The notes beneath the pieces were generated by a model. The model saw nothing but the letters and a program-made list of their open reading frames with translations. It was not told the origin of the DNA and did no database searches. Below, piece by piece: positions 1,166-18,938 of a stretch of 46,204 bases of DNA (position 1 is the first letter of the stretch; each line of letters opens with the position of its first letter). Origin of the DNA: an uncultured Eubacteriales bacterium (GTDB lineage Bacteria; Bacillota; Clostridia; Oscillospirales; Acutalibacteraceae); assembly GCA_900315605.1 (NCBI GenBank), contig OMZU01000012.1, forward strand, positions 1 to 46,204, in the 5' to 3' direction. Both the position numbers and the translations under genes were made by a program.

Positions 1166-1516
1166 TCAGATAAAACCGAGATTGTCTACAAGTTTTTGCG
1201 CTTGCATAACAGGCTGATAAACCGTAAACTCCGATCTGCCCTGCCAATGCACGTCGGGATGTGTAAGGAACTGTTCGCCTCTGCCGGTAAACGCGGCGAC
1301 CTCATAAATGTTGGCGATAAAGACCTCGCCTTCGCCATAGAGGTAGGTATCGACCTCGGCTTTGACGGATTTGCTGTCGAGGTTGTCCGACATGAACTTC
1401 TGATAAATCGTCCAGTCCTCCAAATCGTAATGATCCTTTGGGGAACCGGAGCAGAGGAGAGTTGCTGTATTACCGTTGTCGGCGGTCAGCGTCACCCTTG
1501 AAAACATCACGCTCAT
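1166..1516 (-). CDS. Small uncharacterised element protein, paralogue A
   Basis: This 116-residue protein is clearly a paralogue of the next gene upstream. Both begin MS-x-FSRV-[TS]-LTADNG, then share C-x-G-x-P, a Y-x-x-F-x-x-DN-x-D pattern, a YL-x-GEGE/GDGE segment and an RGE-x-FL segment. No known family is recognised. The start ATG overlaps the upstream stop as ATGA, so the pair is probably translationally coupled. The C-terminus ends in LGFI without an acidic tail, unlike its paralogue, so the shared tail may have been lost or replaced here. No signal peptide or membrane segment is seen. A cytoplasmic, possibly antirestriction-type role is only inference from the neighbouring ardA-like gene. 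Confidence 0.75.
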   Translation of the reverse strand: MSVMFSRVTLTADNGNTATLLCSGSPKDHYDLEDWTIYQKFMSDNLDSKSVKAEVDTYLYGEGEVFIANIYEVAAFTGRGEQFLTHPDVHWQGRSEFTVYQPVMQAQKLVDNLGFI

Positions 1517-1851
1517 GTCATTTCCTCCATAGAAAAGCCCTCGCTGCCAATCGGGATGACGAACCGGTTATAGTCCAAATAATCCACTTCATCGCTGTTG
1601 AGGAAATCCTCACCGCGCTTTTCAAATTCCGCGATATCGTCCTCATCGGCGTTTTCGCTTTCGCCATCGCCGTTAAGGTAGTGCTCGACATCTACTGTAA
1701 TGCTTTCCGCGTCGGGATTATCCTCGAGGAAATCACAGTAGCCGTCGGTATCGGCGATCTGTTCCTCGGTGTCGGGCATTCCCGGGCAGAGATATTCGTC
1801 CGCAGAGCCGTTATCGGCAGTCAGGCTTACTCTTGAAAACAGCTTGCTCAC
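1513..1851 (-). CDS. Small acidic element protein, paralogue B
   Basis: This 112-residue, strongly acidic protein is the tandem paralogue of the gene that follows it. It shares the FSRV-x-LTADNG start and the YLNGDGE and RGEDFL segments. It ends SEGFSMEEMT, a version of the EGFSM tail seen on many proteins of this array, here with four extra residues. It lies 1 bp from the end of the ardA-like gene and overlaps the next gene by 4 bp, so it belongs to one operon. The family is not recognised. Tandem duplication with divergence of the tail is what the sequence shows; function is unknown. Confidence 0.75.
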   Translation of the reverse strand: MSKLFSRVSLTADNGSADEYLCPGMPDTEEQIADTDGYCDFLEDNPDAESITVDVEHYLNGDGESENADEDDIAEFEKRGEDFLNSDEVDYLDYNRFVIPIGSEGFSMEEMT

Positions 1852-1852
1852 G

Positions 1853-3013
1853 CTACATTCCTCCCATTGTCATCGAACTGTTCTCATCCTCGAGCTTGTC
1901 CATAAAAGAATCAAACCCGTCCTCTCCGTCGTAGAAGACAAATCCGCCGCTTACAAACTGACCGCCTTTTTCCTCCGCCATATGAGCGCCAAACCCTGCA
2001 TAGTCGAAAAAATCGCACAGCTCATCGCTGATCTCATATTCGTCATAGTAATCGTTGTCAACGAAGTATCTTCCGATCCCCTCGTAGTCGCCGTAGCTGA
2101 TATCATTCAGATACTCAAACTCGTCAAGGTGATCGATCAGCGTGATGATGTTTTTTGAGGATTTGATGTCGGTCATCTCCATCGCGGCGTCGAGCTTTTC
2201 GGTGTCGATGTCATAGGTGTAAAACTCATACGCAAGCGCGTTCAGAGCGGCAATGCCCTCATTGTCGAGGATGTCCTCAAAGCGGACGGAGAAACGCCCG
2301 AAATTGGGATTCTCATATTCACAGGTCAACTCGCAGTCGTCAATGGACTCCGCGCCGAGCCTGCGGACAGCCTTATCAATTGCGAGCTGCGATTCAGGCA
2401 GGAACAAGCTCTCAAATCTGCCCTTGTACTCCACATCGACGTTGACGATGAACGATTGGTAGGCAAAGCCCGGAAAGATTTTGCCGTCATAGGCTTCCTC
2501 GATTGGTTTATCCTCAACAAACAGCAGTCCGCGCTCGGTAAAGACGCCGCGTCCTGATGCGAGGAGCTTTCTGCCGATTTCGGCATACTTTGCGTCGTAT
2601 CGTGAATCGGCGTTTGCGCAGCCCTCGGTGTTGAGCGTGTACTCTCTGCCGACCTTTGTCATATCACCGACGTTCTTAATAATGGTGAATTTGTCGAGGT
2701 TATAGGTGAGATTGATCAAGTCCTTCAGGTTCTTGGCGTTTCGCTGTTCAACAGCCGCATAAAACTGCTCAATCTCATCATCGGTAAACGAATCCAACCG
2801 CCTTGCGAGGAAATTCAGCTCGTCGAGATTAATCGTCCGCGCATTCAAGGCAGACAGCTCCAACGGATAATGGACGTCCTCGACAAAGAACAGTTGGGTC
2901 GTATCCGTCGGCATCTTCGACTCTATGAGAATATCGTTTAGCATTTCATCGCTGACAGGGAAATCGATATCTGCGGAGTTCCCTTTATAGCTGATATTTG
3001 CTGAAATATACAT
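1853..3013 (-). CDS. ardA: ArdA-like antirestriction protein, double length
   Basis: This 386-residue acidic protein shows the features of the ArdA antirestriction family: LDELNFLARRLDS, LKDLINLTYNLDKF and an IGRKL segment. ArdA proteins mimic B-form DNA and block type I restriction enzymes when a conjugative element enters a new host. At 386 residues it is about twice the classical ArdA of roughly 165-170, and the second half (from about residue 190) again carries an LNALAYEFYTYD-type segment, so it is probably a duplicated or fused form. The start is the ATG at 3013 after AAAGGAGTGATACAA; an 11-codon upstream extension is not supported. It ends SSMTMGGM, close to the shared tail. A hairpin precedes the ribosome site. 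Confidence 0.75.
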   Translation of the reverse strand: MYISANISYKGNSADIDFPVSDEMLNDILIESKMPTDTTQLFFVEDVHYPLELSALNARTINLDELNFLARRLDSFTDDEIEQFYAAVEQRNAKNLKDLINLTYNLDKFTIIKNVGDMTKVGREYTLNTEGCANADSRYDAKYAEIGRKLLASGRGVFTERGLLFVEDKPIEEAYDGKIFPGFAYQSFIVNVDVEYKGRFESLFLPESQLAIDKAVRRLGAESIDDCELTCEYENPNFGRFSVRFEDILDNEGIAALNALAYEFYTYDIDTEKLDAAMEMTDIKSSKNIITLIDHLDEFEYLNDISYGDYEGIGRYFVDNDYYDEYEISDELCDFFDYAGFGAHMAEEKGGQFVSGGFVFYDGEDGFDSFMDKLEDENSSMTMGGM

Positions 3014-3031
3014 TTGTATCACTCCTTTGAA

Positions 3032-3063
3032 GAATCCCCGAACCATCGCTGATCCGGGGATTC
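3032..3063 (-). terminator. Hairpin in front of the ardA-like gene
   Basis: A perfect 9-bp stem, GAATCCCCG/CGGGGATTC, with a 14-nt loop lies between the lipoprotein stop and the ardA-like ribosome site. The following minus-strand bases have only a short T-run. It could act as a partial terminator that lowers ardA relative to upstream genes, or protect the 5' end of a processed message. Confidence 0.5.
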
Positions 3064-3073
3064 TGATAATTAT

Positions 3074-3895
3074 TTATCCGTATACTACATAGATCTGACC
3101 GCCGCTCGCGACGACGTTGAACATGATATCGGACGGTACCGCGCCTAAGTCTGCGTAATAGTACGGGACGTAATCGACGTCGCTGTAGCAATCCGCCGTA
3201 GCTGCGTCCGTGTCGGTGTAACCGCTGATATCCGTCGGTGGGAACCAGCCCGCGTTTCCGATGCCGAGAGAGCCGTTGTAAACCATGCCGAGACTCTGAC
3301 CGTAACCGATTAGATTGCTGACTACCTGATTGTAGTCGAGGTATTTTCTTTCCGCCGGCGGCTCGGTCGGCTCCGGCTCGGGAGCTTTAGTAGGCTTCGG
3401 CGCCTCGGTCGGTTTTGGCTTTGGCGCTTCCGTAGCTTTGGGCTGAGTCGCTTGGGTAGGCTTCGGCGCGGGATTGCTCTGCGGATTTTCGGTGGTTTTC
3501 GGGGAACGGCTCTGACTGTTTCCGCTCTGTTTCGGAGTGTTTTCACGCGAACTTTCTGAGCTTTGCGTCACTGAGCTTTCGCTGTTCTGCACACTCACGT
3601 CGTTCTCCGAAACGCCGTCCTGTTTGCGCGACGTTTGCCCAACACCGGCTTTATTCGGCGAGGTCGGGTACACACCCGAAGGCTCCTGAAAAGCCGACAC
3701 AGGCGATTTCTCGGCGTTTTTCGTTTCGGATGTTTCAGTGCCGAAAATATCAGTATTTATGCGGCTTTCTGCTTCATCCGCCGTCGCGGAATATGTTGGC
3801 TTTTGGTGGATATAATTCTCTTTTTCTGCCTGTGAACAGGCGCTCATGCTGCTCGCTGCCATTAAAATGGCTATGATGATCGCTAACTTTTTCAT
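3074..3895 (-). CDS. Secreted lipoprotein with proline/threonine-rich stalk
   Basis: This 273-residue protein starts with a lipoprotein signal peptide, with lipobox S-A-C at residues 18-20, so it should be lipidated and outer-face anchored. Residues about 40-150 are a low-complexity Ser/Thr/Gln linker. A run of PKPTEAP-type repeats follows (about 145-185), then a compact C-terminal domain of about 90 residues with many Tyr and Asp and a YLDYNQVVSNLIGYG start. The layout is that of a cell-surface protein whose C-terminal domain is held away from the membrane. The C-terminal domain is not recognised. It is in the element's operon between the SpoVG-like gene and ardA, and may have a mating-surface role; this is inference. 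Confidence 0.75.
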   Translation of the reverse strand: MKKLAIIIAILMAASSMSACSQAEKENYIHQKPTYSATADEAESRINTDIFGTETSETKNAEKSPVSAFQEPSGVYPTSPNKAGVGQTSRKQDGVSENDVSVQNSESSVTQSSESSRENTPKQSGNSQSRSPKTTENPQSNPAPKPTQATQPKATEAPKPKPTEAPKPTKAPEPEPTEPPAERKYLDYNQVVSNLIGYGQSLGMVYNGSLGIGNAGWFPPTDISGYTDTDAATADCYSDVDYVPYYYADLGAVPSDIMFNVVASGGQIYVVYG

Positions 3896-3955
3896 ACAGT
3901 CAGCCTCCTTTCAACGAGCAGTATAGTCGCGCCGTTTCGCAAAGTCCAGAGAGAA

Positions 3956-4390
3956 TCACATACTTTGTGAAAAACCTTCGAACTCGTCCTCATCCTCGTC
4001 GAACGGAAGGTCGCCGTCGTCCTCCATCTCGGTAAAGCCATTACTTTCGCTTTCCTGCAATGCCTGATTGTACGCTTCGAGCACCTTGTCGTTGATCGCG
4101 TCGCGCGCCGCTTTTGTGACGGGATGAGCGATCTCGCTGTATTTGGTATTGCCGCCTGCGTCCTTGTACGATTCCTGCGGCATGGATACGAACAATCCGT
4201 TGCGCGAATTGACTACGCGCAGGTTATGGATCGCCACTGCTCCGGCGATATTCACGCTGGCATAGGCGCGCGTGTTGCCGTCGTTGTTTACGAGTCTGTC
4301 AATTTTTGCACTGATACCCGGCGTATGCGGTTGCCGTTTCTGCTGATCCTGATTGTTCCTCTGATAATTCTTTCTGCTTGTTTGTGCCAT
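3956..4390 (-). CDS. SpoVG-domain protein with acidic C-terminal tail
   Basis: This 144-residue protein has a SpoVG-like domain at about residues 30-110. The segments are IDRLVNNDGNTRAYASVNI, then IHNLRVVNSRNGLFVSMPQ and IAHPVTKAARD, matching the known pattern of SpoVG. SpoVG proteins bind nucleic acid and act as pleiotropic regulators. Unlike chromosomal SpoVG (about 90-100 residues), this one has a basic, Gln/Asn-rich N-terminus and a long acidic tail with DLPF and ending EGFSQSM. The ATG at 4390 follows AAAAGGAG and is preferred over a GTG 7 codons upstream. The DLPF segment is reminiscent of the acidic tail of single-stranded DNA-binding protein. A role in element DNA handling or regulation is inferred. 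Confidence 0.8.
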   Translation of the reverse strand: MAQTSRKNYQRNNQDQQKRQPHTPGISAKIDRLVNNDGNTRAYASVNIAGAVAIHNLRVVNSRNGLFVSMPQESYKDAGGNTKYSEIAHPVTKAARDAINDKVLEAYNQALQESESNGFTEMEDDGDLPFDEDEDEFEGFSQSM

Positions 4391-4407
4391 GATAAACACT
4401 CTCCTTT

Positions 4408-5088
4408 TCACAATCCATAAAGTGTAAACCCGACGTCAGCTTGCGTTTCCTCGTCGCTGATATCCTCGGGTTCCGCGTATTTTTCCATGTATCTGCTGAC
4501 CTCATCATCCGTCAGCGATCTGAAATCCTCGCCCGCATCGCCGCAGATGAAGAAGGGTCCGGCGATGACTCCGCCGCCGTCAAGGTGACGGTTGCCCTGC
4601 ATCCCTCTGAGCTTGCTTTCTTCATTCGCGACAAGTACGCAGCCGTCGTCCATAAAAATGGGTTCAATGAGACCGTCACAGACGGCGCGCTGCATACTGC
4701 GAAGCTCGTTGCGAATCTCCGCTTCATACGGTACTTTGCCGGGTTCGACATAAAGCACGCGCATGAGATCGTCCGGCTTCTGTGTCTTTGATTCATCAAA
4801 ATCAATCTGCTTAAAGCCTACGCTGTCGCAGAAGAACGCTCCCTTGCCGGTAACGACCACGTCGGATACCGAAAGTGAGTGACCTTTGAAAAGTGGGTGT
4901 TTTTCCGTGTTGAACCGCACAAAGATGTCTTCGAGATCGTCGGTATCCAACTCCGCGTTGAACACCTCGTCGTAAAGCGAGGGGTCGACAGAATCCACGC
5001 CCATAAATTTCTTCATGCTTTCTAAGCTGAGAAACTTAATCAGGTGAAGGTCACGGTCAGCATTCATCTGATATATTTTTACTCTCAC
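4408..5088 (-). CDS. YodL-like / DUF3846 protein
   Basis: This 226-residue cytoplasmic protein has two parts. Residues 1-100 resemble the YodL-like domain found in many clostridial mobile elements, with GHSLSVSDVVV followed by a CDSVGFK strand. Residues about 110-200 resemble DUF3846, with VLYVEPGKVPYEAEI, a DDGCVLVANEE segment and an IAGPFFICGD core. The function of both domains is unknown; they are typical of integrative-element cargo. The stop lies 17 bp before the SpoVG-like start, and the start overlaps the DUF3849 stop by 4 bp, so it is part of the same operon. It ends QADVGFTLYGL, a weak form of the shared acidic/hydrophobic tail. Confidence 0.75.
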   Translation of the reverse strand: MRVKIYQMNADRDLHLIKFLSLESMKKFMGVDSVDPSLYDEVFNAELDTDDLEDIFVRFNTEKHPLFKGHSLSVSDVVVTGKGAFFCDSVGFKQIDFDESKTQKPDDLMRVLYVEPGKVPYEAEIRNELRSMQRAVCDGLIEPIFMDDGCVLVANEESKLRGMQGNRHLDGGGVIAGPFFICGDAGEDFRSLTDDEVSRYMEKYAEPEDISDEETQADVGFTLYGL

Positions 5089-5807
5089 GATTGATTCACC
5101 TCCAAAGCTGTATCGCTTTCATCTATGTCCAACTTTTCTCTGATGTCGTTGAGCTTTTCGAGCGCCCAATCCGGTAATGCCGCGTCATTGGCTACGCCGT
5201 AAAAATCATGGCGACGGAAAGACGTAAACTCGTCGTCCTTCAAAAAGAAGCCAAACACCCGCGCGCCGATCTTTTTCGGGTTGCATCCAAAGCCGTCGGT
5301 GGCATAGAAAAGCTGATAATCGGGCGTTCGGTATTCATTCTTCAATACCGTCGGTTTGAGGATCAAGAGCTGATCCTCGTAGTTCGATTCGTCGGTAACG
5401 GCAGCTCTATCGAACAGTCCCAGCTCATTCCATGCTGCTCTGAGCTGATTGGCGAAGATATCGACCAAACCGGGATGGGCTGTCACGCAGAAGTGCCAAT
5501 TCTGGTCGTTGCTCAAAACATCAAACCCTTCAGCCCACTCCTTATTTTCTGCTGAATATCTGCCGTCCCGGATGCCCTCGCGGATTGTGTTGGCGATCAC
5601 CCAATTGACGCGGTCAAAGCCGTATTTGTCCAGTAGCGGCTTAACGCAGTCGTCGAGCCGGTTGTCGTGATAGTGGCTGTTGATGGCATCAGTGATGTCG
5701 TTGGCGCACTTGCAGTTTTCGCGGTGGCTCTCGCGCCACTGCTCCACCTCGTCGAACTCGTTCGCGTTTTGAAGCGTATAGCGGTAAAGCGGCTTGAACT
5801 CAGGCAT
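5085..5807 (-). CDS. DUF3849-type mobile-element protein
   Basis: This 240-residue protein matches the pattern of DUF3849 proteins of clostridial elements: PLYRYTLQNANEFDE, a WRESHRENCKCAND segment, VNWVIANTIREG and DGRYSAENKEWA. The C-terminal half has a second conserved block (LLILKPTVL, GFGCNPKK, DFYGVAND). Its biochemical function is unknown. The ATG at 5807 follows AAGGGAGCG and overlaps the upstream AbrB-like gene by 8 bp. A reading that begins 73 codons further upstream runs through that gene in another frame and is rejected. It lacks the shared C-terminal tail, ending ALEVNQS. Confidence 0.75.
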   Translation of the reverse strand: MPEFKPLYRYTLQNANEFDEVEQWRESHRENCKCANDITDAINSHYHDNRLDDCVKPLLDKYGFDRVNWVIANTIREGIRDGRYSAENKEWAEGFDVLSNDQNWHFCVTAHPGLVDIFANQLRAAWNELGLFDRAAVTDESNYEDQLLILKPTVLKNEYRTPDYQLFYATDGFGCNPKKIGARVFGFFLKDDEFTSFRRHDFYGVANDAALPDWALEKLNDIREKLDIDESDTALEVNQS

Positions 5808-6102
5808 TTTCCGCGCTCCCTTGCTGACTTGCAACTTGCATTGACAAATGGACAAGCGCCGCCGCTTTCTGCTCGGGCGAAAGACTGTTGAGGAAGTCAA
5901 GGAGGGTTTCCTTCTTTTCCTCAATCGGCGTTCTCGCGTTGCAGACGCAAAGGCTCTCGCGGCTGATGATGATTCTGTCGTCGTCCAGTTCCTCAAAGGA
6001 AAGGATATCCCCGTGCTGTAAATCAAGACTTTCCCTGATGGCGTAGGGGATGGTGATTTTTCCGTGCTTTCCCAAAAATCTGAAAATAATATCTCCGGTC
6101 AT
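5800..6102 (-). CDS. AbrB/SpoVT-like DNA-binding protein
   Basis: This 100-residue protein has a swapped-hairpin AbrB fold at residues 1-47: GKHGKITIPYAIRESLDLQHGD, then strands with an LDDDRIIIS core. Members are dimeric transition-state regulators or antitoxins that bind AT-rich promoters. The C-terminal half (about 55-100) is helical and Cys-containing at CVCNAR. It overlaps the DUF3849 gene by 8 bp and lies 10 bp after another AbrB-like gene, so the two could form a hetero-complex or regulate the operon. No toxin partner is recognised next to them. Confidence 0.75.
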   Translation of the reverse strand: MTGDIIFRFLGKHGKITIPYAIRESLDLQHGDILSFEELDDDRIIISRESLCVCNARTPIEEKKETLLDFLNSLSPEQKAAALVHLSMQVASQQGSAENA

Positions 6103-6112
6103 ACTTTCCTCC

Positions 6113-6343
6113 TTAAGCAGTCTTTTCGTGTGCGCAGTCGATAATTCGGAACGGACAGTTCACGCAGTCTTCGTCACATTCGAAGCTCTCAATGTCCTCC
6201 GGCTGCAACTTGTGAATAATGACCTTGCCGTCCTCCGCATAGATTTCGACAGCATCAGTTGGGGTAATTCCCGCTTCAATAAGTGCTTCTACGGGCATTG
6301 TGATAAAAATATGGGGCTGTGCTGTTACTGAAATAATTTTCAT
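6113..6343 (-). CDS. Small AbrB-like protein with a cysteine cluster
   Basis: This 76-residue protein has an AbrB/MazE-like start (ITMPVEALIEAGIT, then VEIYAEDGKVIIHKL). It is followed by a short tail with four cysteines spaced CDEDCVNC...C, which suggests metal binding. The ATG at 6343 overlaps the stop of the methyltransferase remnant by 1 bp (TAATG), pointing to translational coupling. It is possibly a regulator of the adjacent genes; there is no direct evidence of the target. Confidence 0.7.
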   Translation of the reverse strand: MKIISVTAQPHIFITMPVEALIEAGITPTDAVEIYAEDGKVIIHKLQPEDIESFECDEDCVNCPFRIIDCAHEKTA

Positions 6344-7304
6344 TAAATCTTACTCTCCTTCAAAATTTTATTAAAATAGTCCATCTTCCCGGCGTCGTCA
6401 AAAAGAGTCAGCTGTTGCGGCTGATTCTTTACACGCTCAAAGAAGTCATAGTTTGCAATCAATAATTCCTTAAATTCCTTTCCTGCTTCATAACGCTGTG
6501 CCATCGAATGGGTTCGGGAAAAGCTGAAGATTTCACAATCCCTGTAAAGTTCCCGAATCTCGGGGCAATCGTTATATGACAGCAGGAACCTGCCTTTGAT
6601 GGAAAACAGTAAATCCCTCAACCGCTCATGATCGTCCGTGCCGAAGCCGCCGGGATACATTCCCTCGGTTGAGAAGTACGGCGGATCAAGATAAAAGAAA
6701 GCGTCGTCGCGGTCATAGTGCCGCACAAGCGTTTCAAAATCCTGATTCTCAACGATCACGTTCGCCATGCGCTTTTCAAGCTGTTGAATCAAGTAAAACA
6801 GTTTGCGAATGTCGAACGGCTGAGAAGCGTATGATTTACCGCTGCTTGAATAGCTGTAGCGCTGTAATTTGAGATACATCGCCGCTTTGCGAACATCATA
6901 GTCCTGCGTATATTTCAGGAAAAGCTCCGCGGCAGCATGATTTCCGTCAGTTCCAATTCCTCGGCGAGATATTCATCGGTGAAAACCTCATGCTCGAAGA
7001 ACCTTATGATAACGTCAAAATCATCTCTGGAGTTGAGATTGCAGAAGCCAAGCTCTCGGATGACAGCCATCGGTCTTGCTTTCATACAGCGGAAGAGATT
7101 GACCAGATTGCGGTCAAAGTCGTTGAATACCTCAAAGGCGTCTATTGTCGGCTTGCCGAGCAATACGCTGCCTGAGCCGCCGAATACATCTATGAACCTG
7201 CCGTAATGAAGCGGAAACAGGTTATAGATGATGTGTAGGATCGATGTTTTGTTTCCTACTCGTGATACCGGTGTTCTGATTTTGATCCCTCGTTTCAGAG
7301 GGTA
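6343..7304 (-). pseudogene. Broken D12-class (Dam-type) adenine-N6 DNA methyltransferase
   Basis: Two pieces of one D12-class adenine methyltransferase are in different frames. The N-terminal piece (about 7304-6915) reads TPVSRVGNKTSIL, then the cofactor motif FIDVFGGSGSVLL and ELTEI. The C-terminal piece (from about 6935 to 6343) starts AAELFLKYTQDYDVRKA and has the catalytic motif DPPYF and an AQRYEAGKEF end. The shift lies near 6930-6940 and amounts to one lost base or two gained. Also, no ATG, GTG or TTG exists between the upstream TGA (7307-7305) and the first conserved residues, so the 5' end is also damaged or uses a rare start. The intact protein would methylate adenine and protect element DNA. 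Confidence 0.8.
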
Positions 7305-7362
7305 TCAATCCCCGCAGAGATCGGACGGTATCATTCGCCGCGGGGTTTGCGATTGATACCCT
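7299..7362. repeat. Inverted repeat with TGATACC boxes upstream of the methyltransferase remnant
   Basis: Arms AGGGTATCAATC (7299-7310) and GATTGATACCCT (7351-7362) are perfect 12-bp complements. They are extended inward by CCCCGC/GCGGGG. A further GGTATCA lies in the loop (7327-7333) and a TGATACC at 7263-7269. It could be a hairpin in the message or an operator with four boxes. It lies in the non-coding stretch between the DUF3789 stop and the methyltransferase remnant. Confidence 0.6.
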
Positions 7363-7375
7363 GTAGTTTTATTTC

Positions 7376-7528
7376 TTATCGAGAATTATTCATGTTATCG
7401 ACAATGCTGCGGAGTCTGCGAATTTCCGCTTCGTACTTATTGACTCTGTGGATGGACAGGCAGCACATCAGAAAAACTCCAAAACAGCCGCCGACCATCA
7501 TACCCAAGAAAAACCAGAGAAATCCCAT
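7376..7528 (-). CDS. DUF3789-like small membrane protein
   Basis: This 50-residue protein consists of one glycine-rich membrane helix (about residues 2-24, with FLGMMVGGCFGVFLM), then a polar amphipathic tail. It resembles DUF3789 proteins common in clostridial conjugative elements. The ATG at 7528 overlaps the upstream stop by 1 bp (TAATG), which decides the start; a reading 34 codons longer overlaps the neighbour and has no ribosome site. It probably sits in the cytoplasmic membrane. Function is unknown. Confidence 0.65.
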   Translation of the reverse strand: MGFLWFFLGMMVGGCFGVFLMCCLSIHRVNKYEAEIRRLRSIVDNMNNSR

Positions 7529-7896
7529 TACAAGCTCATCCCTTCCATAGCCGTTTCGCCGTTGACTACAGCAAATTTGATTTCCAATCCCAGCAGCACA
7601 TCCTCGGTTGCCTTGTCGGTGTAACCGCACAGGGCGTTTGCGACAAGCTCTTCCAGCTGATTGGATTCAGCAACGGAAAGCGGAAGAACAACCGTGCCGC
7701 TTTTGTCGGTGATGCTAAACGTATCGGGATTCTGACGGTATTCCTTATACCTTTCGAGGGAGAGCTTCTCATAGAATTCTCCGAAACCGGCACCGTCCAT
7801 CCGGCTTCTGTCTGACGCGGCAAAGGCGCACCACTGACGGCACGCCTCGTCGAGCAGACCATATTTTTGTTTGAATTTTTGATAACTTACAATCAT
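7528..7896 (-). CDS. Uncharacterised element protein with GMSL tail
   Basis: This 122-residue soluble protein is not recognised. Visible features are a helical N-terminus (YQKFKQKYGLLDEACRQW), an aromatic YKEYRQNP segment, and a C-terminus ending TAMEGMSL, one of the shared tails. It lies in the operon directly upstream of the small membrane protein, with a TAATG junction, and 28 bp after the previous stop. The codon use looks like its neighbours. Nothing suggests catalysis. Confidence 0.7.
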   Translation of the reverse strand: MIVSYQKFKQKYGLLDEACRQWCAFAASDRSRMDGAGFGEFYEKLSLERYKEYRQNPDTFSITDKSGTVVLPLSVAESNQLEELVANALCGYTDKATEDVLLGLEIKFAVVNGETAMEGMSL

Positions 7897-7924
7897 TTAT
7901 TCTTCATCCTGTTCTGTAGTGATT

Positions 7925-8254
7925 TTATAAATTGAAACTGAAATCTTCCTCTTCCTCGGGAAGCGAGGCGCTTTGCACCGCGTCCTCGCCGAGTGACGAA
8001 AGAATCTGATTATACTGCTCCGTGTCAAAGCAGTCCCTTATACCGAACTCGGCGCAGAGCTGCTCATATTCGGCAACGTCTACGCTGTCGGTGTCGATAC
8101 TGTCATTGAGCTGCAGCCAAGCCTTGCACTTATCCCAATTCACGCAGAGCGAGGTGGGGTAACCGCCTGTGCGGTCACATTGAAAGTCGGGCGAAACATA
8201 CACGTCGCCGTCGTTCAGCCGTTCAAGCTGGCTGGCGAAATCCTCATATCTCAC
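7925..8254 (-). CDS. Uncharacterised acidic element protein
   Basis: This 109-residue acidic protein has no recognised family. It has a WDKCKAWLQL helix and a run EEEEDFSFNL at the C-terminus, which matches the acidic-then-hydrophobic pattern of the neighbouring tails. The start overlaps the upstream stop by 4 bp (ATGA), so it is co-translated with the preceding gene. No signal peptide or membrane segment is seen. Confidence 0.7.
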   Translation of the reverse strand: MRYEDFASQLERLNDGDVYVSPDFQCDRTGGYPTSLCVNWDKCKAWLQLNDSIDTDSVDVAEYEQLCAEFGIRDCFDTEQYNQILSSLGEDAVQSASLPEEEEDFSFNL

Positions 8255-8820
8255 AATGACATCCCCTGACCTTCATCAAAATCCTCGCTCTCCGAACCGT
8301 CGGTGATGTTGACATAATCGCCGATTACGCCGAGGGCTTCGTCGTAGCTGCCGGAGCTCATTACCTTATCAAGCATTTCCCGCGCTTCCATCCTCATGCC
8401 GTTTTGCTTGAGGGTTTGCGCCGCTTTTCCGGCAAGATGAAAAATGTTGCCGTTCTCGCCGATCAGGGCGCAGTCGGGCTTGACTCTCTCTCCGAGATAA
8501 CCGCCAAGCTCATTGGAAACGTAGTCTGAAAGCCAAGTGCCGCCGAACTGACTGTGCGTTGACAGTCTCCACATAGCGAGCTTGCCGGTATCGAACTTTA
8601 CGTCGGGATTGAAAGGAAACAACAGACAGGTCAGCCCGTTGTTTTCAAAGCGGTAAACGTCGGAAAACCTTTTGCCGTCAAGCAGCACTTTGCTCTCTGT
8701 CAGCATATCGTTGATGCCGTCAACCCACTCCTGCAAATCGCCGCCGCAGCCCTGAAAAACAAGACCTTCGGTTTTCTTCATTCGCCGAAGGTCAGTAGTT
8801 GAAATATCCTTGATGCTCAA
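8251..8820 (-). CDS. Uncharacterised two-part element protein with GMSL tail
   Basis: This 189-residue protein has a first part (residues about 15-110) with LVFQGCGGDLQEWVDGIND and a MWRLSTHSQFGGTWLSDYV block. A second part (about 115-170) contains CALIGENGNIFHLAGKAA and GSYDEALGVIGDYVNI. Both blocks look like segments I have seen repeatedly in clostridial mobile-element proteins, but I cannot name a characterised family or activity. It ends DFDEGQGMSL, a clear shared tail. It overlaps genes on both sides by 4 bp, so it is part of one translationally coupled string. Confidence 0.7.
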   Translation of the reverse strand: MSIKDISTTDLRRMKKTEGLVFQGCGGDLQEWVDGINDMLTESKVLLDGKRFSDVYRFENNGLTCLLFPFNPDVKFDTGKLAMWRLSTHSQFGGTWLSDYVSNELGGYLGERVKPDCALIGENGNIFHLAGKAAQTLKQNGMRMEAREMLDKVMSSGSYDEALGVIGDYVNITDGSESEDFDEGQGMSL

Positions 8821-10352
8821 AGATTCATACCTCCTATATAAAAATCTTCGTCGCTGTCCTCTGTAAAATCCGTTGCGGCGAATTCTTCCGTTGTCATAAA
8901 GCCTCCGAGAAAGTTCGGCTCTGTATCGTAATCGAGCTCAATATATCCGTCTGTACCAAGATCAAGTGGTTCTTTCACGATAAATGAGCCTGCGTGATCA
9001 ATGTGTACGTTCTTCTCGATCGAACCGTAGTAATGATCCTCTGAACCGATTGCCTCTCTGAAATCATAACGGTACATTCCTTCGGGAACTTCGCTGTCGT
9101 ATATACGGCTGTCGCTGAATAAGGCTTTTTGTCCGCAAATCTCGATCAGCTCGTATTTTTCAAGCTCATCGTAGCCGGTCAGCGCAAATAAACTGTCTTG
9201 CTGCTTGGAAACTATGCCGTAGGATGTTACCTCGGCTCCCAACCGTTGAAGCAGTCTGTCGGCGTCGATTTCGGAGCGAATGCCGTCAAGCCAGCGAGTG
9301 TCAAAATTGGTCGGCGCGTGGTAGGCAAGATATTCCTTAAAGAAGTCGTCCGCATCCTCCGCGTCAAACGAAAACTCATAATCATTAATGCTCTTGAAAG
9401 CGGAAACGGCGCCGTCCAGCGTGCTGACATTTCTTCTCTCCAAAACGGCTTTGAACATCGTCCGTTCCTCTGCGGAAAGGGACAGATAATTCAATGCAAG
9501 CTCGTTGAGCTTATCGATATCACTCATGCTTTGAAGCATATATCCTCCAAACTGAGGAATACCGCTTTTGAAATCATAGAAAACACAGTCCTCAATCAGC
9601 GACGCGCCGAGCTGTTTCGCCAAGGCGTTCATTTCGTCCTTGCTCTCCGGCAAATGAAGCCACTGCGCGGATTTTAACACTTCGTCAGGATCGGTCTTGG
9701 GTGCTTTGGCAACAAGCAGACTGAAAACAGCGCCGTCCGATGGGGATTCAGGCAGAAGCTGACTGCCGTCATACACATTCTTCAGTTCATGGTACCTTGT
9801 GGGAACGTAGTATTTGCCATAAAATACGCCGTCGTCGCGTTCTCTGAATTCCTTGCCGATGGATTTGTAATCAAGATAGGACAAGGCAGCGTCCGGAACA
9901 TTTTCGAAGCGTTCGTCGAAATCATTTTCAACGACGAATTTGCCCAGCTCGTAATCCGTACCGACATTGACCGCCAAAGGTATCATATCCAATCCATACG
10001 TCATATTGATGACCGAACCGACATGAATTTGCTCGTCCTCCTGCATTCCTCTTGTGCGGGCGTAATACAGCGCCTCAAATTTGATCTCATCTTCCTCCGA
10101 CAAACTGTCAAGGCGCTTCGCCAAATAGTTCAGCGCATGAATATCGTCTGCGGTGACCGACAGATGGGAAGGATCAAACATCACCGCTTCCTCAATGTCG
10201 ATAAACTTTTGGGAGGACTCGTTTTGAAACCGCGCTCTGCTGAGAGCATCTTCGATCTGCAGCTCTGTCGCGGGCAAATCCAGTGTGGCACGGTAGAACT
10301 CGTGCTTTCTCGGCTTTTCAGCCGACAACTCTATTGTCATCTGTGTACTCAT
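8817..10352 (-). CDS. Large ArdA-like / LPD28-like element protein
   Basis: This 511-residue acidic protein has ArdA-type segments: IHALNYLAKRLDSLSEEDE (about 65-85), a VINMTYGLDMIPL segment, then a repeat near LNELALNYLSLSAEE (about 285-300). The C-terminal part (about 405-480) resembles the polyvalent-protein domain often called LPD28: YELIEICGQKALFSDSRI, VPEGMYRYD, and HIDHAGSFI. These domains occur in proteins brought in with conjugative or phage DNA. It ends DEDFYIGGMNL, a shared tail. The ATG at 10352 follows GAGGTGAGG. Antirestriction is a reasonable inference for the ArdA part; the LPD28 part has no known activity. Confidence 0.7.
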   Translation of the reverse strand: MSTQMTIELSAEKPRKHEFYRATLDLPATELQIEDALSRARFQNESSQKFIDIEEAVMFDPSHLSVTADDIHALNYLAKRLDSLSEEDEIKFEALYYARTRGMQEDEQIHVGSVINMTYGLDMIPLAVNVGTDYELGKFVVENDFDERFENVPDAALSYLDYKSIGKEFRERDDGVFYGKYYVPTRYHELKNVYDGSQLLPESPSDGAVFSLLVAKAPKTDPDEVLKSAQWLHLPESKDEMNALAKQLGASLIEDCVFYDFKSGIPQFGGYMLQSMSDIDKLNELALNYLSLSAEERTMFKAVLERRNVSTLDGAVSAFKSINDYEFSFDAEDADDFFKEYLAYHAPTNFDTRWLDGIRSEIDADRLLQRLGAEVTSYGIVSKQQDSLFALTGYDELEKYELIEICGQKALFSDSRIYDSEVPEGMYRYDFREAIGSEDHYYGSIEKNVHIDHAGSFIVKEPLDLGTDGYIELDYDTEPNFLGGFMTTEEFAATDFTEDSDEDFYIGGMNL

Positions 10353-10363
10353 ATAGCCTCACC

Positions 10364-11389
10364 TCACATGCTCATTGAGAAGCCTTCGTCCTCATCTTCA
10401 GTGTCCATATCGTCCGAAAAATCTTCATCCGCGCTTTCGCTGGGCATAAGAGAATCCGCTTCATAAAGCGTTTTTCCCCGGTAGGAGATCTCGGTGATAT
10501 CTTCGGGAGTGAAGTCGCTGTATCTGCCGAAGCGCTCGTAAAAGCCGTCCCTGTCTTTAGGCGGGATTTCCCACGCGCTGTATCTGCCATCCAAGTAACG
10601 GCTCAGCCTGTCCGCGCTGTACTTAAAGCTGTATTCCTCGCCGCCCTTGATGATGGTAACGTTTACGGTTTTCGCTCCGCTGTCCTTGACAGCGTCCATG
10701 ACAGCCTTCTGTTTATGCAGAGGATGATTCGGATTCGCTTCGAGCACACGGAGCTTTTCGCGGAGAATCTCATTCTTGCGCAACTCGAGCAGCATATCGT
10801 CCTGATGAGTCTGCCAATATCCCGTTGCCGCTTCCTCGACCGTCGCGTCGCGGTACTTCAAATACCGCAGCATTAAGGCGGAACTGCTCCGATCCAAATA
10901 ATAACCGCATTGAAACCTGATGTCGTCAGCCGAATCGCCGCCGAGATACATCCTTGTCACGATAGAATCAGCATAGTTGCGCCTGAAATCGTCGAGGCGG
11001 TTATCGTACTTTGCATCCTCAAAAGACGGGCTGCGTAGATGATCAACATCGTTGCCGACAACCCCTTCGATAAAAGCTCGGACGTCATCATTGAACTGCT
11101 GCTCAATATCAAGCATGGATTTTGTGGAATCCATGTCGTCAAGCTTACCCTTCAAAGGAAACTTGACGTCATAAAGCTGTCCGTCGAGCTTGTTATAGAT
11201 GCCGCAGTAAGCCATATTCGCATTGACAGTCAGCGGTTCGCCGTTGTAGCTGTTCTGATGAAACAAAAAGTCAAAATCATAATCGTATGGCACACGAATA
11301 ATGGTGTCCGCATAGTCGCCGTTTCTTATAGCGGCAGGCTTCGTGATATCGTCCTGAAGCCATTTGCTGAGTTCACTGTAGTCTTTCAC
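10364..11389 (-). CDS. Uncharacterised 341-residue element protein with EGFSMSM tail
   Basis: This soluble protein of 341 residues has no recognised family. It has a YDYDFDFLFHQNSYNG segment near the start, a helical, charged middle (about 190-250, with LLELRKNEILREKLRVLEANP) and a strand-rich part around VNVTIIKGGEEYSFKYSADRL. The last 40 residues are acidic, ending EDEDEGFSMSM. This is the clearest example of the shared tail. Its start overlaps the cytosine methyltransferase stop by 4 bp, so it is coupled to that gene; a partner role with the methyltransferase is possible but not shown. Confidence 0.7.
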   Translation of the reverse strand: MKDYSELSKWLQDDITKPAAIRNGDYADTIIRVPYDYDFDFLFHQNSYNGEPLTVNANMAYCGIYNKLDGQLYDVKFPLKGKLDDMDSTKSMLDIEQQFNDDVRAFIEGVVGNDVDHLRSPSFEDAKYDNRLDDFRRNYADSIVTRMYLGGDSADDIRFQCGYYLDRSSSALMLRYLKYRDATVEEAATGYWQTHQDDMLLELRKNEILREKLRVLEANPNHPLHKQKAVMDAVKDSGAKTVNVTIIKGGEEYSFKYSADRLSRYLDGRYSAWEIPPKDRDGFYERFGRYSDFTPEDITEISYRGKTLYEADSLMPSESADEDFSDDMDTEDEDEGFSMSM

Positions 11390-12498
11390 GGTTCACACCT
11401 CACAATCTGATATTTCTCATTGACCGCCCTGATTTTCTCGCCGATAGCTGAGATGACCGGGACGGTGACTGAATTCCCAGCCATTTTGTAAAGTCTGGCA
11501 TCGGACAATCCCATCGCCTGCGCCTTGTAGAACTGTTCGTCGGTAAAGCCTTGGAGCCGCCAGCACTCGATTGGCATAAGGGTTCGTATCCTGCCCTCAT
11601 GCATCACGCCGTGCCTGTCGGTGGCGGTGATGGTAAACATCGGCTCGTCGGGCTCCTTGACGCGCCTGCCGTTCTGTCGAACCTTTTCCTTCTGCGGCGA
11701 GATGATCGCCCTCGGCTTGTCCTCGATCAGCACACCTGAATTGACGCCCTTGTGGTTGGTCACGCCCGCGTTGTGACGGGCGATGATCGTTCGCGCTTCG
11801 TCGGTGATCATCGGGTCGGGGTTCAGGTCGATGAAGTATAACCCTGTTTTGCCGCCCTGACCGCCCGAGCCCGCGCACTGCGTACAGGCTATGCCGTCGG
11901 GGTCGTAGACGCGCTGCCCTTGGCTGCCGCCGATAATCTGCCTGAGATTTTTCGCATTGCGGCTTGCGAGAGGAAATATTTCTCCGGCACATCGGTCATC
12001 AAGATATCCGACAATGTACAGCCGTTTTCGCTGCTGGGGAACGTAATATCTGCTGTCAAGCACGCACCATTCAAAACAATACCCCACTTCAATAAGCGCG
12101 GAGTAGATGGTTTCAAGTGTCCTGCCTTCGTCATGCGATAACAGTCCGACGACGTTTTCCAGAAGAAAAAATGCAGGCCGTTTCGCCTTAAGCAGTCGGG
12201 CAACCTCAAAGAAGAGAGTACCTCGGGTATCCTCGAAGCCAAGCCGCCTTCCCGCCACGCTGAAACTCTGGCAAGGAAAACCTGCGCAGACAAGGTCGAA
12301 GTCGGGCATTTCGTCGGGATTGATCTTTCTTGCGTCGTCACAGTAATATTCACCTCTCGTATCAAAAATTGCGTTGTATGCTGTGTTCGGGTAAGGGTCG
12401 ATTTCGCAGTGACCGATGCATTCAAAGCCGCCGACGGCCTCCAAGCCACTGCGAAAACCACCGATACCCGAAAACATATCAAAAAATCGGATCACCAT
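11386..12498 (-). CDS. C5-cytosine DNA methyltransferase (Dcm-type)
   Basis: This 370-residue enzyme has all the main C5-methyltransferase motifs in order: motif I FSGIGG (9-14), IV with catalytic Cys76 in PCQ, VI ENV (114-116), VIII QRKR (156-159), a variable target-recognition region (about 190-300), and motifs IX/X ending in GNSVTVPV. It transfers a methyl group from S-adenosylmethionine to cytosine in a specific site. No restriction endonuclease is visible beside it, so it probably works as a solitary methyltransferase that shields the element from host restriction. It has no acidic tail. It overlaps the following gene by 4 bp. Confidence 0.92.
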   Translation of the reverse strand: MVIRFFDMFSGIGGFRSGLEAVGGFECIGHCEIDPYPNTAYNAIFDTRGEYYCDDARKINPDEMPDFDLVCAGFPCQSFSVAGRRLGFEDTRGTLFFEVARLLKAKRPAFFLLENVVGLLSHDEGRTLETIYSALIEVGYCFEWCVLDSRYYVPQQRKRLYIVGYLDDRCAGEIFPLASRNAKNLRQIIGGSQGQRVYDPDGIACTQCAGSGGQGGKTGLYFIDLNPDPMITDEARTIIARHNAGVTNHKGVNSGVLIEDKPRAIISPQKEKVRQNGRRVKEPDEPMFTITATDRHGVMHEGRIRTLMPIECWRLQGFTDEQFYKAQAMGLSDARLYKMAGNSVTVPVISAIGEKIRAVNEKYQIVRCEP

Positions 12499-12530
12499 AC
12501 GGCATCCGACCTAAGTAAAAGTACCCTCCT

Positions 12531-13076
12531 TTACATGCTCATTTCAAAGCCTTCGTCCTCGGCTTCATCGTCTTCGAAGTCCTCGTCGTCGGATTCTTCG
12601 TCGTCGAACTCGGAATCTTCCTCGTCGTATTCATCCTCGGACTCGTCCTCAAACTCGTCCTCGTCGGAATCGCCCTCAAAATCGTCCACAGCGTCTTTTT
12701 CGCTGTAGTCGGGTTCATCTTCGTCCTGCTCGTTTTCGCGCTCAAAACCGGCGTTCTCGCTCTCACGGGCGGTCTGCTCGCGGTCGAGCTCGCGCTCTAT
12801 GAGTCCGAGCAGGAACTGCTTCTGTGTCATGTTGTTGCGGTGCAGGTAGTCCTTGATGCGCTGAAACATTTCCTCGGGCACCTGAAACGCAACAGTTCTT
12901 GTGTTTGCCATGATATTTCCTTCTTTCTCTGAAATTTTTGGGTGGAGTTCGTTGTCCAAGGCAACGGCAACGAACTCCGACATTGTCATGCCGTGGCTGC
13001 GGATATATTCGCTGACCTCCGCGTGAAGCTCCGCAGCCACCTTTACGGTAATGCCTTTCTTTGCGACGTCAGGCAT
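12531..13076 (-). CDS. Double ribbon-helix-helix protein with long acidic tail
   Basis: This 181-residue protein begins with two ribbon-helix-helix-like units, residues about 7-46 (ITVKVAAELHAEVSEYI, MTMSEFVAVAL) and about 58-95 (RTVAFQVPEEMFQRIKDYL, MTQKQFLLGLI). The rest (about 100-181) is almost all Asp and Glu, ending EDEGFEMSM. An internal ATG at 12911 (residue 56) follows AGAAGGAA at good spacing, so a shorter single-domain product is possible. RHH proteins of mobile elements act as repressors or as accessory factors at transfer origins. The acidic region could compete with DNA for the RHH surface or serve as the shared tail's spacer; both are inference. It overlaps the small upstream RHH gene by 8 bp. 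Confidence 0.8.
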   Translation of the reverse strand: MPDVAKKGITVKVAAELHAEVSEYIRSHGMTMSEFVAVALDNELHPKISEKEGNIMANTRTVAFQVPEEMFQRIKDYLHRNNMTQKQFLLGLIERELDREQTARESENAGFERENEQDEDEPDYSEKDAVDDFEGDSDEDEFEDESEDEYDEEDSEFDDEESDDEDFEDDEAEDEGFEMSM

Positions 13077-13206
13077 TTTTGATCATCCTTTCCAAGTAGT
13101 TTTTGATTGCCGACTCCACGATTTCCTCAACGGAAAGTCCTGTTTCGGCGGCGTAAGCCAAAAGCGGCTCAACGAGCTGCGACGGGATTTCAATGTAATG
13201 CTCCAT
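13069..13206 (-). CDS. Small ribbon-helix-helix protein
   Basis: This short gene (45 codons) reads MEHYIEIPSQLVEPLLAYAA, then LSVEEIVESAIKNYLERM. The pattern of a short strand followed by two helices with LSVEEIVESAI fits a ribbon-helix-helix unit. It overlaps the start of the double RHH gene by 8 bp and begins just after the DUF4314 stop, so it fills what otherwise looks like a gap. Such proteins usually form dimers that bind operators. Together with the next gene there are three RHH units in a row here. Confidence 0.7.
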   Translation of the reverse strand: MEHYIEIPSQLVEPLLAYAAETGLSVEEIVESAIKNYLERMIKNA

Positions 13207-13213
13207 GAAAACC

Positions 13214-13504
13214 TCACAGCTTCATCGTCGGTGCTTCGCTCTCGTCGACACTCTGTTCCTCCGCGATTTCCTCGGCGGTGAGAATGCGGAAGGTGTCCTC
13301 GCCGGGAATCATGCCCAGGCTCCTGCCGTTATCGAAATCACAGTGAACCGTGCCGATATCATCTACGGCAACTACTGTTCCTTTGCTGTTCGGCTCGACC
13401 GGTCTCGGGTCGCTGCCCATGTGAAGCAGCATAACGCGCGTTCCCGCGGGATATCTGTCTTTGATCATTTGCGCCCGTCTGTGCAGGCGATCCCATTCTG
13501 TCAT
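13214..13504 (-). CDS. DUF4314-type protein
   Basis: This 96-residue protein matches DUF4314: IKDRYPAGTRVMLLHMGSDP, then KGTVVAVDDIGTVHCDFDNG and LGMIPGEDTF. It is probably a small beta-barrel of about 70 residues followed by an acidic tail (EEIAEEQSVDESEAPTMKL), a weaker shared tail. The ATG at 13504 follows GGAGGTAACAAA and overlaps the sortase stop (ATGA). DUF4314 proteins are common in clostridial conjugative elements; activity is unknown. Confidence 0.78.
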   Translation of the reverse strand: MTEWDRLHRRAQMIKDRYPAGTRVMLLHMGSDPRPVEPNSKGTVVAVDDIGTVHCDFDNGRSLGMIPGEDTFRILTAEEIAEEQSVDESEAPTMKL

Positions 13505-14364
13505 TTTGTTACCTCCGTAGCTTGCCGAAACCTCCGCCGTTTCCTGCGCCAAAAATAGATTTTTACAATCACAACGGCTATAACGGCAAGTCCGGCGATG
13601 ATGATTTGTAGCTGATGGCTTTTCGGCACCGTTCTTGTTACCTGAGATACCGTCGCTGCCGAATCTGATGTGGCGGCTTCAAATGGCGCGCGCTCCGCGT
13701 GAACCAACAGCCTATGGCTGTTAACGCCGTAGGGAGTGCAGGTCACGAGCGTCAGCAAATCCTTTCCCTGAACGACCTCCAGCTTGCTCGAATCGTCAGG
13801 CTCTACCACATCCGTACCGATGACGGAGTATTTCAGCGTCCGGTCAAGAACGTAAATATAGATTTCGTCACCGTTTTCCAGTTCGTCGATATCGTCAAAG
13901 AACTTCTGCGTCGGATAGCCGCAGTGCGCGGAAATGCAGGCGTGAGTGTTTTCGCCGCCGATCGGAAAGGAAGTATGCTCCAAATGTGCGGCGCCTTTCG
14001 TCAGCACATCTTCGCTCTCGCCGTGATAAATCGGGAGACGGACATTGATTGACGGGATTTCGACATAGCCCATAATGCCGTCGTCCAAATCGAGAATCTC
14101 ATCATAGTGAGACAAAATTGAGAGTTTGCTGTCGTCTGTGCTGACGTCGGTTGCCAGTGCATCGTTGTATTTTTCCGCAACGGAAAAATAACCATCTAAA
14201 TCTTCCTGTGAAAAGGAATCGACGTTATTGTTGTAATCGTCGATTCGACTCTCGTTGTACTGCTCATTGATCGCGTTGCTGATTGCGGGATAGAGGAAGC
14301 ACACCGCGCTGAACAGTATCAGCGCGGTGGTCAGTATAACGAACAGAGGTTTCAGCTTTTTCAT
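13501..14364 (-). CDS. Class C (pilin-polymerising) sortase
   Basis: This 287-residue membrane enzyme has an N-terminal membrane helix (about 7-28), an extracellular catalytic domain and a C-terminal membrane helix (about 240-272) followed by basic residues. The catalytic set is His147 (SAHCGYP), Cys209 (TLVTC) and Arg218 (SHRLL). A C-terminal membrane anchor with this layout is typical of class C sortases that link pilin subunits through lysine-isopeptide bonds. It lies directly after the major pilin gene, 9 bp away, so the pilin is its likely substrate. Confidence 0.88.
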   Translation of the reverse strand: MKKLKPLFVILTTALILFSAVCFLYPAISNAINEQYNESRIDDYNNNVDSFSQEDLDGYFSVAEKYNDALATDVSTDDSKLSILSHYDEILDLDDGIMGYVEIPSINVRLPIYHGESEDVLTKGAAHLEHTSFPIGGENTHACISAHCGYPTQKFFDDIDELENGDEIYIYVLDRTLKYSVIGTDVVEPDDSSKLEVVQGKDLLTLVTCTPYGVNSHRLLVHAERAPFEAATSDSAATVSQVTRTVPKSHQLQIIIAGLAVIAVVIVKIYFWRRKRRRFRQATEVTK

Positions 14365-14373
14365 CGTTTTAAC

Positions 14374-15879: not shown

Positions 15880-15900
15880 TGATAAAATCCTCCTGTAATT

Positions 15901-15922
15901 AAAAAAGCACCCGTTTGGGTGC
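15901..15922 (-). terminator. Intra-operon terminator between adhesin and pilin genes
   Basis: On the minus strand a GCACCC-AAAC-GGGTGC hairpin is followed by six T. It lies 10 bp after the adhesin stop and 20 bp before the pilin start. It is probably an attenuator or partial terminator, or it ends an adhesin message while the pilin has its own start. The T-run makes it a convincing rho-independent site. Confidence 0.75.
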
Positions 15923-15932
15923 ATAGTGACAA

Positions 15933-18866: not shown

Positions 18867-18938
18867 GTTTTCTCTCCTTTCTTTGGAATGGTCTGTTGAA
18901 GAATTTTGCGGGTCTGTCGCGTGTACGGTAAAAGTGTT

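Follow-up and report, generated by a model that had tools for sequence, protein, structure and literature searches.

A shared C-terminal tail on proteins of a clostridial mobile element: a candidate targeting signal for conjugative type IV secretion

The first 20.5 kb of the window, by which we mean the whole 46,204-nt stretch analysed here (OMZU01000012.1, contig 29 of 93 in the 2.42 Mb genome G000 of an uncultured gut bacterium of the Eubacteriales), are part of a mobile element whose genes all lie on the minus strand. Pfam recognizes in it DUF4314, a C-5 methyltransferase, ArdA with LPD28, a piece of a D12-class methyltransferase, DUF3849, YodL with DUF3846, SpoVG, ArdA, peptidase S51 and one MazE/AbrB-like protein, with a second MazE/AbrB-like protein below the cut-off. 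About ten of the element's proteins share a methionine-rich tail, which stands at the extreme C-terminus of mostly unrelated proteins and is a real feature of the window (Table 1). We propose that it acts as a portable C-terminal signal directing proteins to the conjugative type IV secretion systems (T4SS) of Clostridia, a reading to which we give a probability of roughly 0.63. The element itself is probably conjugative, since the same kind of operon in a relative from the same genus (G002:C60) runs on into a TraG/VirB4-type ATPase, TrbL, a CHAP-lysozyme protein, a MobP3 relaxase and a CD1115-type coupling protein. Proteins of the window are named below by the lower coordinate of their genes.

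Materials and methods

A C-terminus was counted as tailed if its last six residues held two or more Met, or if they held a Gly and a Met stood among the last three (the rule). Host proteins were taken from 40 stretches covering 486,863 of 2,423,823 bases and from 20 open reading frames (ORFs) on the host side of the window; the set of 413 host ORFs excludes the stretch holding a second conjugative element, and the set of 435 is the wider host sample. ORFs were called mechanically (longest start, overlap filter), with some starts wrong and some small genes missed. A first set of relatives consisted of 24 loci fetched by homology to the ArdA-LPD28 or DUF3849 protein, not by tail. A second set of 20 further DUF3849 loci was fetched afterwards and scored by the same unchanged rule. 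The labels VirB4, VirB6, sortase and pilin were checked by Pfam, and the MobC-like and excisionase-like labels were given by eye; two MobC-like proteins tried against Pfam gave no match. The DNA pattern [DE][DE]GF(S/T)M(S/T)M-stop was scanned for in 84,980 prokaryote genomes. MobL relaxases were found by hidden Markov model (HMM), and not chosen by tail, in 295 genomes of the order; PF03432 relaxases were likewise found by HMM and taken from the best-scoring loci.

Results

The C-termini quoted in the original prediction are all in place: EDEDEGFSMSM (10364), EAEDEGFEMSM (12531), EDEFEGFSQSM (3956), SEGFSMEEMT (1513), ETAMEGMSL (7528), DFDEGQGMSL (8251), DFYIGGMNL (8817) and SSMTMGGM (1853). 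The weaker ends of 7925, 13214 and 4408 are also present as quoted, but all three fail the rule. The folded bodies had been described as unrelated, which is correct for most of them; 1853 and 8817, however, both have an ArdA domain, and 1513 is a paralogue of the tail-less product of 1166-1516 (38% over 99 amino acids). An acidic stretch precedes the tip in most cases but is weak in 7528 and 1513; at least four Asp or Glu, in mixture, occupy positions -21 to -7 in 10 of the 13 cargo-type genes of the window. The methyltransferases, sortases, pilins and AbrB-like proteins of the window are without the tail, as had been noted.

Table 1. Genes of the mobile element in the window, with their C-terminal tails
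Coordinates	Strand	Product	C-terminal tail	Tail coordinates and remarks
1513..1851	-	112-aa (amino acid) protein	GFSMEEMT	1513-1539; overlaps ribosome-binding site and start of next gene
1853..3046	-	ArdA-domain protein (PF07275)	SSMTMGGM	1853-1879; overlaps ribosome-binding site of next gene
3956..4411	-	SpoVG-domain protein (PF04026)	FEGFSQSM	3956-3982
4408..5088	-	YodL-DUF3846 protein	VGFTLYGL	divergent; fails rule
5085..5810	-	DUF3849 protein	absent here	
7528..7896	-	122-aa protein, family unknown	TAMEGMSL	7528-7554
7925..8254	-	109-aa protein	EEDFSFNL	weaker; fails rule
8251..8820	-	189-aa protein, family unknown	DEGQGMSL	8251-8277; overlaps ribosome-binding site of next gene
8817..10352	-	ArdA + LPD28 protein	FYIGGMNL	8817-8843; overlaps ribosome-binding site of next gene
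10364..11389	-	341-aa protein, family unknown	DEGFSMSM	10364-10390 (last 8 codons and stop)
11386..12498	-	C-5 cytosine methyltransferase, same operon	none	internal negative
12531..13076	-	protein with weak ribbon-helix-helix-type matches	DEGFEMSM	12531-12557
13214..13552	-	DUF4314 protein	APTMKL	weaker; fails rule
13501..19784	-	two sortases and two pilin-like proteins	none	internal negative

Eight of 25 element proteins pass the rule, against 4 of 413 host ORFs (P = 1.5e-8). The check proposed with the original prediction, a comparison with host proteins of matched acidity, came out in favour of the tail: none of 58 such proteins passes (P = 2.7e-5 against the element), and plain acidity was rejected as the cause, since these proteins lack the tip. 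Ends of the form M-x-[ML] are found on 6 of the 25 element proteins and, in the host sample, on 1 of 435 ORFs; this sole host case sits in the second conjugative element (G000:C72), beside a TraG/VirB4-type ATPase. At the DNA level, the form [G/D/E]-F-x-M-x-M-stop occurs twice in the whole of the source genome, both times in this operon.

The prediction also withstood the second refuting condition named with it, since the same kind of tail is retained in related elements, though not letter for letter. In the first set, which was not blind because the rule was formulated after the relatives' tails were known, the rule is passed by 37 of 64 homologs belonging to window families, in 5 cases through a separate basic EMER/EMEL ending; the 64 exclude 6 homologs matched only to reference proteins from G002, C72 or L032, some of which had been picked for their tails. 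None of 43 homologs of channel, sortase, pilin, methyltransferase, AbrB, lipoprotein and MobC-like proteins passes. In the second set 8 of 33 pass, all of window type (P = 1.5e-7 relative to host ORFs), and no machinery homolog does (0 of 22). In most of its loci the sole family member present is a DUF3849 protein of the basic ER type. The three with a window-type operon (L264, L266 and L268) give 7 of 18, with endings such as GPTMSM, GVSQTM and GFTMGGM, and contain further Met-containing ends missed by the rule (FIQSM, EGMNLS, IAPSM).

Taken by family, relatives of 10364 keep DEGFSMSM in L045 and L046, both found by the tail pattern, and end in DEGSTMKM in G002; those of 12531 end in DDGYEMSM (L046), DEGFSMSM (L044, pattern-found), TEGMVMRM (G166) and GFTMGGM (L266). 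Three of four SpoVG homologs (3956), 8 of 11 ArdA+LPD28 relatives (8817) and 6 of 8 ArdA relatives (1853, several ending in FQMGGM) pass the rule, as do 8 of 15 DUF3849 homologs (5085), two of these by the basic tail type. The ends are DEGMGMRL, DEGMNLNM and GMEMTDV for relatives of 8251, SHRMKL for the G002 relative of 7528, GQGLKL (G002) and EEMQL (L167) for those of 7925, APTMQM (L046), GMKMKM, GGMTLG, GGMSL and MTMTMG for DUF4314 proteins (13214), and GFRIISF, GMSMSQF and TMSMTL for YodL-DUF3846 proteins (4408). Dam and Dcm methyltransferase homologs carry no tail (0/12). In L032, a Toprim protein ends in ENFIMTM and an amidoligase in GFSMSM. Across the 295 genomes of the order there were 11 pattern matches outside G000; four of the five inspected are C-termini of mobile-element proteins, and the fifth (G043) is at no ORF end.

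The second conjugative element of the source genome, of which G000:C72 (L089/L095) is a part, has a TraG/VirB4-type ATPase and a MobL relaxase. Three of its proteins end in GEESGMSM (a DUF6329 protein), CQMSLS (a primase-like piece) and GGVMTQ (a 285-aa protein with no Pfam hit). The possibility that C72 and the window belong to one element was considered and rejected. Their ends do not overlap, and the left end of the window starts a protein 94% identical to one held whole in C72, which is why we treat C72 as a second element.

Outside the families of the window, the tail also appears on relaxases. The scan of prokaryote genomes gave 19 matches. Seventeen are in-frame gene ends in records titled Clostridia or their families, and the other two, in a Bacillus and a Bacteroidales record, fall out of frame and are due to chance. 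Of the 17, 14 are relaxases, two are related to 10364 of the window and one to 12531. Within the 14, HMM matches support L036, L034 (same gene as L047) and L051 as MobP3/MobL and L042 as PF03432; the other calls rest on visible similarity, with L037, L040, L041, L047 and L054 visible only in part. Several of the tailed relaxases are encoded in small units whose MobC-like protein and integrase (assigned by Pfam in L036) have no tail, and these units are probably mobilizable elements. The same strict pattern had no match in 2.9 million viral contigs, and a phage origin of the tail was rejected on this ground, the viral scan having been confined to the strict pattern and not extended to looser tails.

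In the MobL set, whose 64 distinct ends comprise some from fragments and one from a frame that a stop interrupts (L101), 20 of 64 pass the rule and 21 of 64 end in Met, against 5 of 413 host ORFs (P about 1e-15). Their endings include QGGMVMGGM, GGMTMGGM, SWGMSMSM, AFGMRM and DFKMHM. Four PF03432 relaxases out of the 28 at the best-scoring loci pass, with GPVMGGM, GPTMKM, PVMSGM and GFGMSW. By eye, the Met-rich tail of many MobL relaxases (L097-L126, L177-L216) is an optional extension past a KIxEKKxAxGxK-like segment, at which other MobL relaxases stop (HGLKQ) and the C72 relaxase nearly does. The tail therefore behaves as a module that relaxases gain or lose, which cuts both ways for its interpretation.

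A comparison within the genus of the source organism shows that the tails changed together. The operon of G002:C60 is at roughly 46-64% identity per protein to that of the window. Where the window has Ser/Thr/Asn, G002 has Lys/Arg at 10 of 13 tail sites, spread over nine of the ten orthologous pairs compared, against 18 of 327 sites in the rest of the same proteins (tail versus body P = 6e-10, the two residue classes having been picked after the tails were seen). Examples are GFSMSM to GSTMKM, GQGMSL to GMGMRL, IGGMNL to SGGMKL, MTMGGM to MRMGGM and FTLYGL to FRIISF. In a shuffle test within families over 19 elements, non-homologous proteins of one element resemble each other in their tails more than expected, the observed likeness being reached in 8 of 2000 shuffles, or in 48 of 2000 when basic-tail elements are left out.

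Discussion

Relaxases are the canonical substrates of conjugative channels. For a mobilizable element, the relaxase is the only protein that has to be passed to the coupling protein of a helper, and its sharing of a tail with early proteins of conjugative elements thus points to a common address at the coupling complex. The tail would consist of a flexible, usually acidic linker and a short Met/Gly-rich tip (GFSMSM, GMKL, MGGM), and the tip would be read by an element-encoded receptor, most likely a VirD4-like coupling protein or its partner. Mobilizable elements would tag their relaxase and so be accepted by the channel of a resident conjugative element. Conjugative elements would tag early proteins (ArdA-type antirestriction, SpoVG, YodL/DUF3846, DUF4314, a Toprim primase-like protein and several of unknown fold), which would dock at the channel and probably enter the recipient along with the DNA. 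The cargo agrees with this, because ArdA-type, Toprim and amidoligase proteins suit early action in a recipient, and methyltransferase homologs, useful in the donor, are without the tail. The likeness of tails inside an element and their concerted change are what a receptor encoded and shared by the element would give; a common element-specific receptor explains the change better than a host receptor, as a host protease or partner is probably nearly the same in two members of one genus. The low confidence of the AlphaFold model of 10364, in which residues 314-341 are below 50 in predicted local distance difference test (pLDDT), agrees weakly with a flexible tail; the model as a whole was poor (mean pLDDT 48.5, three sequences).

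A number of observations weigh against the targeting-signal reading. Most relaxases fail the rule (44/64 MobL and 24/28 PF03432), and tailed cargo and a tail-less relaxase occur together in some elements. Several relaxases of complete conjugative elements with tailed cargo lack the tail, ending in KKFGLGLH (G002), AHGLKHG (G000:C72) and EQKLITY (G257). Window-family homologs fail the rule as well: 27 of the 64 do so in the first set, and 25 of the 33 in the second, where the failures include nine DUF3849 proteins with the basic ER ending and several Met-containing tails missed by the rule. The lower pass rate of the second set reduces our odds slightly. The host rate is also exceeded by unlabelled ORFs of these loci (12 of 286 and 12 of 240), and some loci are near-duplicates (62 distinct ends of 64), which makes the samples not fully independent. 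The channel of the window element lies outside the contig, and the receptor is putative, the coupling complex being the candidate. Finally, antirestriction need not travel as protein, as ArdC of R388 is described, in the part of the source available, as required by recipient cells, whereas donors did without it (PMC7213743).

The original prediction of a shared export or recruitment tag has strong indirect support from the tail on relaxases, its absence from machinery homologs (0/43 and 0/22) and the concerted change, but docking without export fits these data equally well, and passage into the recipient lies one putative step beyond docking. The tail could be a docking tag only, bringing proteins of the element together at the donor's relaxosome or coupling complex, and DNA-binding cargo could indeed act on donor DNA there. 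We consider this rather unlikely, yet the same data fit it and none separates docking from export. What speaks against it are arguments from function: ArdA-type antirestriction and the Toprim primase-like protein would have their greatest use in the recipient, and methyltransferases, which could act in the donor, are tail-less.

The tail could also be a by-product of translational coupling, in which the GGAGG of the next gene (Gly-Gly or Glu-Gly) and its ATG (Met) lie inside the upstream frame. Tails do overlap the next ribosome-binding site in 8817, 8251, 1853 and 1513, and part of their Gly and Met could stem from it; a Shine–Dalgarno-like word is present in the last 15 coding bases of 19 of 41 tailed homologs. 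The other 22 have none, the tails of 10364, 12531 and 3956 overlap no such site, a tail is still present on 25 of 36 homologs in which over 12 bases separate the stop from the next start, and relaxases without an overlapping next gene carry the tail. In addition, both TCN and AGY codons serve for tail Ser, depending on the gene, and four codons for tail Gly, a mixture that suggests selection at the protein level. Tails without such words or near starts, and the mixed Ser codons, show that translational coupling is not the general cause; it is largely refuted as a full account, for which we see little chance, and contributes at some junctions. Non-polar C-termini, when exposed, are known to mark proteins for degradation, and the tail might shorten the life of element proteins through a host protease (ClpX-like or tail-specific). 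This is very improbable: two elements of one genus, with probably near-identical proteases, differ in tail type in concert, and presence on relaxases fits transfer better. The comparison with single-stranded-DNA-binding protein (SSB), made in the original prediction, was not borne out. The tip of SSB consists of acidic residues and PF, and an SSB-like tip recruiting to the single-stranded-DNA machinery of element or host would account for an acidic linker with a hydrophobic end; the SpoVG protein 3956 even has an internal, SSB-tip-like DDGDLPF just ahead of its tail. This motif is not kept in the G002 relative, no tail in the window or among the listed homologs ends in PF, the tips being Met/Gly, and the relaxases point elsewhere. 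Identity with the SSB tip was rejected for want of a terminal PF, and a functional likeness has hardly any probability left.

Substrates of VirB/D4 systems of the Agrobacterium type have a short signal at the extreme C-terminus that is common to unrelated proteins, and in this the clostridial tail resembles them. Their signals are positively charged, as Vergunst is said to have reported in 2005, whereas the clostridial tail joins an acidic linker to a Met/Gly tip. A net positive C-terminus was not found here: linkers are mostly acidic, and tips have Ser/Thr/Asn or one or two Lys/Arg. Possibly closer in charge is the Glu-rich (E-block) C-terminal signal of Legionella Dot/Icm substrates, which is bound by DotM; that acidic stretch recruits unrelated proteins to a T4SS coupling complex, as is proposed for the clostridial tail, and the authors suggest, in the sections available, that the receptor surface may co-evolve with the type of tail (PMC5802825). 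Dot/Icm is a system by which a Gram-negative injects effectors, whereas the present case concerns conjugation in Clostridia, the pattern lies mostly in the last six residues, and relaxases share it. Delivery of proteins besides the relaxase has a precedent in the T4SS of the F plasmid pED208, which transfers ParA, ParB1, ParB2, SSB, PsiA and PsiB; the accessible part of that report describes no common C-terminal motif and places the TraI signals internally (PMC8406263). The polyvalent proteins of conjugative elements, for which delivery with the DNA was predicted, overlap with the present cargo in the domains ArdA, YodL, LPD and Toprim, but the header suggested for them is an N-terminal ArdC-N, and the terms 'C-terminal tail' and 'secretion signal' are absent from the available text (Iyer 2017, PMC5512222). 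Reviews of Gram-positive conjugative T4SS, in the portions available, describe no C-terminal translocation signal and say little on how helpers accept the relaxase of a mobilizable element. The tail was not found in the open-licence literature, to which the search was confined, subscription journals and preprints lying outside it. Further literature, available in part, is PMC12857230, PMC6540685, PMC5704250 and PMC11389934.

The data also allow speculation about an evolvable C-terminal address code, by which about ten early proteins (antirestriction, nucleic-acid-binding, primase-like and others) would be delivered to the recipient as protein, each with the tag that the element's own coupling complex reads, tag and receptor would drift together, and mobilizable elements would choose their helper by the tag of the relaxase. 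The types of tag would be Ser/Thr, Lys/Arg, MGGM and a separate basic ER ending in Tn1549-like elements. We hold this extension tentatively, at odds slightly below even. If true, a readable tag would predict from sequence which proteins of an element travel with the DNA, which mobilizable element fits which helper and where the receptor lies, and it would turn the proposed delivery of polyvalent and antirestriction proteins into a question of tail deletion.

The loci L157-L164, L176 and L254-L263 resemble what we take to be Tn1549-type elements. In them the YodL and DUF3849 proteins, together with a giant one of helicase type (so assigned by Pfam in L160), share a basic stretch followed by E-x-E-R or E-x-R, with endings such as RGAEMER, KREPER, KQEMEAR and KQHEEVR. 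An E-x-R or ER end is found on 1 of 413 host ORFs and on 8 of 28 PF03432 relaxases; the relaxases inside the Tn1549-like loci mostly end in HGQR. These basic tails are suggestive only, and other conjugative families may have shared tags of their own.

Other features of the element

Searches with window proteins beyond the Pfam domains above were of limited yield. PADLOC returned nothing for ten of them, and NCBIfam gave only matches below the cut-off, for two of the ten. Protein 10364 has no Pfam or NCBIfam match, and 12531 has a RepB-RCR_reg match slightly under the cut-off. The pilin-like proteins, with SpaA, GramPos_pilinBB and thioester domains (Pfam), are the element's own, as are the two sortases. 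The D12-class adenine methyltransferase gene (6343-7163, minus strand) is apparently split into 6343-6879 and 6915-7163, and its relative in L024 is a single frame of 261 aa. Directly past the last element gene (19781-20485) lies a tRNA-Met gene (20790-20866, minus strand), a plausible integration site.

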